A stretch of DNA of 64,000 nucleotides from Hymenobacter jeollabukensis. GTDB taxonomy: Bacteria; Bacteroidota; Bacteroidia; Cytophagales; Hymenobacteraceae. The position numbers were made by a program, and so were the translations under genes. The notes below the pieces were generated by a model. That model saw nothing but the letters and a program-made list of their open reading frames with translations, had not been told where the DNA came from and did no database searches. Below are positions 2,619 through 56,170 of the stretch, piece after piece. The stretch covers positions 124,001-188,000 of the forward strand of contig NZ_VAJM01000003.1 in NCBI RefSeq assembly GCF_005771675.1. The letters are read 5' to 3'. How positions within the stretch are numbered: position 1 is the stretch's first letter; each line of letters begins with the position of its first letter.

Positions 2619-3509
2619 ATGCACCTTGCCCTTGTTACCTGCGACGCCCTGGCTCAGTACCAGAGCACCGGCGTCGCCGACGAAGACCACCAACTCGCCG
2701 ACTACCTGCGCGCCCGCGGCCTCGATGTCACGTTTGCCTCGTGGTCGGATGCCGCGGTGCGCTGGGAGCAGTTCGACGCGGCGGTGCTGAAGTCGCCCTG
2801 GGACTACTTCGACCGCCCCGCCGAGTTTCACCGCTGGCTCGACGAGCTGGACCAGCGCGGCGTGCGCCTGCTGAACCCAACGAGCATCGTGCGGCCCAAC
2901 GCCGACAAAAGCTACCTGCGCGCCATGGAGCAGGCTGGCGTGCCCATCGTGCCGACGGTGTGGCTGCCCAAGGGCAGCCGCGTGGACACCGCCGCGCTGC
3001 TCACCGCGCTGGGCCAGCCCGAAAAGCTGGTGCTCAAGCCCACCGTGAGCGGCGGCGCCAAGGACACCTTTGCCCTCACCCCCGACGAGGCTGCCGCCGC
3101 TACCGCGCAGCTGCAGGCCCTGGTGGATGCCGGCGACTTCATGGCCCAGCCCTTCCTGCCGCAGATTCAGACGGCGGGCGAGTGGTCGTTGCTGTTTTTC
3201 GGCGGGCAGCTCAGCCACTGCCTGCGAAAGACGCCCAAGTCCGGCGACTTCCGCGTGCAGCACATGTTCGGCGGCGGCATCCACGCCGAAACGCCCCCCG
3301 CTTTCATCCAGGAGCGGGCCGCCGACATCGTGCAGCACTTCGCCCCCGGCTGCCTCTACGCCCGCGTCGACGGGGTGGAAAACGGAGAAGGCGGCTTCTG
3401 GCTGATGGAGCTGGAGCTGATCGAGCCCTTCCTCTACCTCGACTCGGCCGGCCCCGCCGCCTACGCCCGCTACGCCAACGCGCTGCTGGAGCTGCTGAGC
3501 CGCAAGTAG
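2619..3509 (+). CDS. ATP-grasp domain protein (RimK/glutathione synthetase-like fold)
   Basis: A 296-residue predicted ATP-dependent carboxylate-amine ligase. The N-terminal third is a Rossmann-like pre-ATP-grasp domain (begins MHLALVTCDAL). The middle carries the ATP-binding lysine strand KLVLKPTVSGG, and the C-terminus has the metal-binding acidic strand LMELELIEP. The frame is open upstream, but the ATG at 2619 is chosen because the earlier residues come from the protease terminator and look non-coding. Similar proteins are common in Bacteroidota as stand-alone hypothetical ATP-grasp enzymes. No partner gene is adjacent, so the substrates are unknown. The domain call is secure; the reaction is inferred from the fold. 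Confidence 0.85.
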   Translation: MHLALVTCDALAQYQSTGVADEDHQLADYLRARGLDVTFASWSDAAVRWEQFDAAVLKSPWDYFDRPAEFHRWLDELDQRGVRLLNPTSIVRPNADKSYLRAMEQAGVPIVPTVWLPKGSRVDTAALLTALGQPEKLVLKPTVSGGAKDTFALTPDEAAAATAQLQALVDAGDFMAQPFLPQIQTAGEWSLLFFGGQLSHCLRKTPKSGDFRVQHMFGGGIHAETPPAFIQERAADIVQHFAPGCLYARVDGVENGEGGFWLMELELIEPFLYLDSAGPAAYARYANALLELLSRK

Positions 3510-55754: not shown

Positions 55755-56170
55755 AGAACGTCATGTCGAGCTTGTCGAGACATCTCGCGTGCTGACACTA
55801 GATAGCATCCTTATCCTTGCCAGGTGCGCGGATCAATTGGCTCCCAGCGCGGATTCAGCGTGCCGACCAGCCATTCCTTCTTGGTTCGGCTCCAGTTCTT
55901 GAGCTGCTTCTCACGGGCAATGGCCTGCACGGCATCCGGGCTGATTTCGAAATACACCAACAAATTGCACTGGTAGCGTCCGGTAAACTTGCCGGCATCT
56001 CCCAAGCCTTGACCATGCTCGTGCAACCGGCGTTCTAAATCATTGGTCACGCCGATGTAAAGCACTGTCCGGGCCGGGTTGCTGAGGATATAGACGAAGT
56101 AGCTCATGCAGGTAAGATACTATCGGATGTCAGCACGCGAGATGTCTCGACAAGCTCGACATGACGTTCT
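55755..56170. mobile_element. GIY-YIG element with perfect 43-bp terminal inverted repeats (family B)
   Basis: The left arm 55755-55797 and right arm 56128-56170 are perfectly complementary over 43 bp (outer end AGAACGTCATGTCGAGC, inner end GTGCTGACA). The 330 bases between hold one gene, a GIY-YIG nuclease on the minus strand that starts 20 bases inside the right arm and stops 13 bases inside the left arm. It lies between two genes that are normally neighbours. A gene-less relative is at 37232. A mobile role is inferred; no target-site duplication was identified. Confidence 0.7.
55811..56107 (-). CDS. GIY-YIG nuclease family protein
   Basis: A 98-residue single-domain GIY-YIG protein: VYI at residues 5-7, YIG at 17-19, the catalytic Arg in DLERRLHEH (R26/R27), and the metal-binding Glu E66 in REKQLKNWSR. 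All catalytic positions are present, so active DNA cleavage is plausible. Size fits the UPF0213/YhbQ-type family. Its unusual feature is the pair of 43-bp perfect inverted repeats directly around it, which suggests that it acts on or moves with these repeats. Confidence 0.92.
   Translation of the reverse strand: MSYFVYILSNPARTVLYIGVTNDLERRLHEHGQGLGDAGKFTGRYQCNLLVYFEISPDAVQAIAREKQLKNWSRTKKEWLVGTLNPRWEPIDPRTWQG

Follow-up and report, generated by a model that had tools for sequence, protein, structure and literature searches.

The window, the 64,000-nucleotide stretch of the Hymenobacter jeollabukensis genome analyzed here, contains a short gene for a GIY-YIG nuclease that lies between two inverted copies of a palindromic repeat (Table 1), and the question raised by this locus is whether the enzyme and the repeat belong together. 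The preliminary description had the gene enclosed by perfect inverted arms of 43 bp, and both the open reading frame and the arms are as described there. The perfect arms (43 nt each) are separated from the gene ends by 13 and 20 nt, and a weaker similarity extends the arms to 68 nt, over which they are 85% complementary. The arms also recur beyond chance: a 28-bp arm core has 79 copies with at most three mismatches in the 6.18-Mb genome, 58 of them exact, and the reversed pattern has none.

Table 1. Features of the arm-enclosed nuclease unit, in window coordinates
Feature	Position	Strand	Remarks
Left arm (CGTC-tagged palindromic repeat plus inner tail)	55755..55797	+	CGTC end outward
Inner inverted motif GATAGCATC	55801..55809	+	GATAGTA also inside gene-free pairs
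GIY-YIG nuclease gene	55811..56107	-	98 aa, intact catalytic residues
Inner inverted motif	56117..56125	-	8/9 positions match left motif
Right arm, perfect inverted copy of left arm	56128..56170	-	CGTC end outward

The encoded protein consists of a single domain, which matches the GIY-YIG family of Pfam (PF01541, E 3.5e-16). Its catalytic residues, which had been called intact from the sequence, are invariant across 26 aligned homologues (Y6, Y17, G19, R27 and E66), and an AlphaFold model of the nuclease (26 aligned homologues) has a mean pLDDT of 92. The protein resembles the UPF0213 group (1zg2, 1ywl) and Slx1, a nuclease that acts on branched DNA: the best fold match of the model is the UPF0213 structure 1zg2, which is also matched by sequence (E 8e-9), followed by a weaker fold match to Slx1 (E about 0.01). 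To our knowledge, no repeat association has been described for UPF0213 proteins or for Slx1. Searches of PADLOC and NCBIfam gave no match for the window protein, and PHROGs gave one weak match, to a family of unknown function. The gene is under purifying selection (dN/dS 0.03-0.07). At synonymous sites it differs more (0.54-0.57) than the neighboring DUF1599 gene does between the same genomes (0.15-0.22, with G169 left out for DUF1599), which indicates that the history of the nuclease is not one of simple descent with its neighbor. A homing endonuclease would be expected in an intron, in an intein or at its cut site within a conserved gene; the unit is instead intergenic and flanked by two complete genes.

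There are three nuclease genes in the window genome (6.18 Mb, 27 contigs). Two of them carry the window arm, and the third (C22) carries arms of the form GTCATTGCGAG...GCAATC, a type that has 66 matches in the same genome. The two genes that share the window arm, that of the window and C9, differ at 75 of 297 positions, and all four of their arm cores are identical despite this divergence. A tree of type A nucleases (n = 4) had weak branch support and was set aside.

Most copies of the arm enclose no gene. The arm is a multi-copy repeat that occurs chiefly as gene-free inverted pairs about 60 bp apart and also as single arms; the gap measures 49-69 bp in 34 of 48 distinct pairs, and the CGTC ends point outward in 54 of 64 close neighbor pairs, a count from which overlap between loci was not removed. 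The window genome matches a relaxed pattern, GTCAT-NNN-GA...GA-NNN-ATC, 367 times (control 2). Across 20 genomes the counts lie between 7 (control 2) and 857 (control 0), and the repeat is thus not abundant in every genome with a nuclease. Many pairs in the window genome are mixed, with one window-type arm and a partner that has another stem or loop (L013, L020, L026 and L114, among others), and arms thus seem to be exchangeable. Rfam gave no match for six loci. Target site duplication, a feature of classical insertion sequences and MITEs that the preliminary description had proposed to look for, was not found: there is no consistent excess over 48 pairs, six boundary offsets and k of 2-7, in a test that elements making no duplication would escape.

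In an alignment of 78 arms, the outer edge is sharp (AGAAC/GTCAT) and conservation continues inward through CTCGCGTGCTGA. Of 131 arm-like strings, 115 have complementary letters at the outer three stem positions, whereas shuffling gave 69 on average and 80 at most; the sample leans toward the GTC stem because the loci were fetched by that stem. DNA folding of four single arms was no better than that of shuffled DNA, and a stable hairpin is therefore unsupported for them. At one locus of the sibling genome G166 (L034, C33), the two arms are immediately bordered on the outside by another perfect inverted repeat of 38 bp (2904-2941 and 3349-3386), as if the unit occupied the tip of a larger palindrome or the flank had been copied in reverse; a similar outward extension is present at L054.

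The enclosure of the nuclease by such arms is real and general. A collection of 144 nuclease loci was assembled from the window genome (3), a set of 80 kept from 575, a set of 29, 14 plasmid loci from 32 records, and another 18; it contains two duplicates, and 132 loci are distinct with full flanks. Correctly oriented CGTC palindromes are present on both sides of the gene in 79 of these 132, on one side in 30 and on neither in 23, and when same-site relatives within the genus are left out the counts become 74, 28 and 22 (n = 124). The preliminary description held that an element-type role would be unlikely if homologues mostly lacked flanking repeats, and this is not the case. By source, both-side arms are found in 42 of 73 loci of the set kept from 575, 17 of 26 of the 29-locus set and 8 of 14 plasmid loci. 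A slightly different rule passes 46 of 76 nuclease loci and only 9 of 4194 placements that were shifted within those loci. Likewise, within four Hymenobacter stretches two of 630 open reading frames are enclosed in this manner, and these are the window gene and its same-site relative, leaving 0 of 628 others. The records of loci with both arms, several of which are labeled as MAGs, include Bacteroidota, Clostridia, Patescibacteria (Uhrbacteria, Roizmanbacteria), Propionicimonas, Fibrobacter, Syntrophaceae, Alpha- and Gammaproteobacteria, and Planktothrix.

The arms are also specific to their locus. With the two duplicate loci included, arm similarity is 0.74 within a locus and 0.45 between loci, a difference reached in 0 of 5000 shuffles, and identical stem letters occur on both arms at 53 of 84 loci, where 9 are expected. 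The correlation between protein and arm similarity is weak over those 84 loci (r 0.15); over 13 loci of a single genus r is 0.76, a value inflated by shared sites. Among 22 loci of the genus, 13 have both arms, four have one and five, including one whose flank is short, have none. The intact nucleases of the window clade, five copies at four sites, share one arm type, and another nuclease clade, six copies at three sites, carries GTCATTGCGAG arms.

Copy number partly follows the nuclease. In a small sample of eight related genomes, the window arm has 77, 66, 51 and 36 copies in genomes with the intact clade and 25, 18, 3 and 1 in the others; agreement with its own nuclease is looser for the second arm type (66, 29, 26, 14 and 10 copies with it; 22, 9 and 0 without). 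A survey of 146 genomes of the order, from which eight with weak hits were set aside (one of these also has an excess), shows a repeat excess of at least 20 in 24 of 47 genomes with the nuclease and in 7 of 91 without it; outside the family the corresponding figures are 13 of 35 and 6 of 89. The association is incomplete in both directions, as the excess is below 10 in 18 nuclease genomes and at least 20 in eight genomes without a strong nuclease hit. Repeat counts are low on four plasmid records (5, 3, 9 and 0; controls 0).

Comparison of sites among sibling genomes reveals nuclease-bearing, gene-free and empty versions of the same place, and so the outcome that the preliminary description had weighed against an element, relatives keeping the whole unit with no empty sites, did not occur. 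At the DUF1599-MauE gene site, the nuclease unit is present in the window genome and in G170, whereas G167 and G168 contain a gene-free and partly decayed CGTC pair, G166 retains a single arm remnant, and G169 and G171 have nothing; the closest sibling, G165, has an unrelated inverted repeat there (CCTCACCCCCCGGCCCC...GGGGGTGAGG). At the C9 site, the unit of the window genome is replaced by gene-free pairs of two other types in G165 and G166 and by nothing in G170 and G167. A nuclease copy with 92% protein identity occupies a third place in G166, at which neither the window genome nor G165 has one. These differences would fit movement, and also old copies that were lost unevenly. No clean insertion junctions were obtained from about 200 kb of sibling genomes, because the intergenic flanks are too diverged; the loose palindrome rule used there gives many single hits that are chance matches in coding DNA.

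Palindromes of this general kind have been named CGTC-tagged REPs (Di Nocera et al. 2013; PMC3733652). As characterized there, they have a CGTC or TGTC end and AT at the start of the stem, form head-to-head pairs, possess a stem of 8-9 bp, a loop of 4-5 nt and a short tail near CCA, span several phyla including the Alphaproteobacteria and Neisseria, and are said to have no dedicated transposase (PMC3733652). The window arms share the end, the AT stem start and the head-to-head pairing with this description, but their stem is longer and interrupted and their tail is TCTCG, in place of the 8-9-bp stem, loop and CCA tail given there (PMC3733652). With an interrupted stem and this tail, the window arm is at best a further family of CGTC-tagged REPs; some plasmid loci, L244 and L251 among them, look closer to the repeats of that description (PMC3733652). 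The paper reports no dedicated transposase (PMC3733652); at the 79 both-side loci here, such repeats enclose a GIY-YIG gene. A literature search that took in parts of PMC5082802 and PMC12306157 recognized no paper tying GIY-YIG genes to REPs.

The arrangement is also similar to that of REPIN-RAYT systems, in which many inverted pairs of short palindromes likewise accompany a small number of enzyme genes that have this palindrome on either side, and the palindromes are clade-specific. It differs in the enzyme, which has a GIY-YIG fold here and is an HUH tyrosine transposase there, and in the outer tag, which is CGTC rather than GTAG. The unit is quite probably a REPIN-like element, with the nuclease, by association, the dedicated partner of a CGTC repeat family whose arms it may nick and spread. 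Dedication of the nuclease to these palindromes is well supported by sequence comparison, since the arms flank it in several phyla and match within each locus, and copy number partly follows the enzyme. To this extent the earlier proposal that the enzyme may recognize or mobilize the palindromes is partly supported; recognition and mobilization themselves we only infer, and target duplication was not found. As relatives of the nuclease often reside inside their own CGTC pairs, the enzyme is likely the partner that these repeats were said to lack.

Conceivably, this small nuclease recognizes the arm, probably when the palindrome is single-stranded or branched at the replication fork, and would nick it there. 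Repair or strand transfer could then copy arm pairs into new intergenic places, and the same processes may keep the arms uniform. Judged from the genomes compared, spreading of the repeats by the nuclease is plausible. The broader proposition, that GIY-YIG nucleases are the missing mobilizers of CGTC-tagged REPs and that, with the enzyme gene carried in the loop between paired arms, they form a second class of REPIN-type replicator, of independent origin and present in several phyla, stands about evenly between true and false. If it is true, the RAYT way of life has evolved twice, with unrelated catalytic folds. CGTC REPs occur in several phyla, and an enzyme inside a matching pair, clade by clade, makes the question of their partner testable.

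A different account begins with Neisseria, where the N. gonorrhoeae homologue (41% identity to the window nuclease) is located inside a 3.3-kb array whose 16 palindromes have the form ATTCCC...GGGAAT and CGTC ends (L297). Ssn is reportedly a site-specific single-stranded nuclease of the GIY-YIG superfamily that cuts single-stranded DNA at the repeat NTS in Neisseria, and together with NTS it is said to modulate natural transformation. The window nuclease family probably matches Ssn, and the N. gonorrhoeae homologue may be Ssn itself. Its position in a CGTC-repeat array fits what is reported of Ssn, so the nuclease family is likely a known one and probably not new; the RAYT-like system with a different enzyme class that had been proposed earlier is best read as a GIY-YIG enzyme paired with its own REPs. 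The window nuclease also resembles Ssn in being a small single-domain GIY-YIG protein with intact catalytic residues and in having many genomic copies of a candidate cognate sequence (the 79 arm cores). The Ssn literature may already report part of the present associations; as far as the literature was searched, the present work contributes an architecture of REPIN type in which the loop holds the gene, the variation between genomes at individual sites, and a connection to CGTC REPs that had no assigned enzyme. It could be that the window unit belongs to an Ssn-like host system without mobility. In such a system selection would keep the repeats as cis sites for transformation, single-stranded DNA processing or transcription ends; the nuclease would act on them while they multiply by other means, and the gene would have come to lie among them by local duplication or selection. 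The reported role in transformation, the array in Neisseria, the strong purifying selection and the lack of target duplication all agree with this account. The window gene, unlike the Neisseria homologue, is situated within a simple REPIN-like pair rather than an array. However, sibling sites are polymorphic, a given place carrying repeats of another type or no repeat at all, and the close G166 copy lies where the window genome has nothing, which together make a purely sessile system rather unlikely.

The inverted ends and many gene-free copies would likewise suit a MITE, that is, arms of a non-autonomous transposon moved by an unrelated transposase with the nuclease as a passenger. Yet it is repeatedly the nuclease that is enclosed, in several phyla and by different arms that match within each locus, none of the 628 other open reading frames is so enclosed, and target duplication is missing; this reading is very improbable and was rejected. 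The density of the repeats in Hymenobacter, evident from the relaxed-pattern matches, also raises the prospect that they often enclose any small intergenic gene, whether by chance or because both favor the space between genes. The same absence of other enclosed frames, in four repeat-dense stretches, and the match between the arms of a locus leave this explanation scarcely credible, and it too was rejected.

Some individual loci differ in their surroundings. No arm was found at the S. meliloti locus (L246). An arm-flanked nuclease unit resides between sufB and sufC in Azospirillum lipoferum (L251), and on a Planktothrix agardhii plasmid (L245) an arm-flanked nuclease is positioned between an MmeI-like restriction gene and the DISARM gene drmA.
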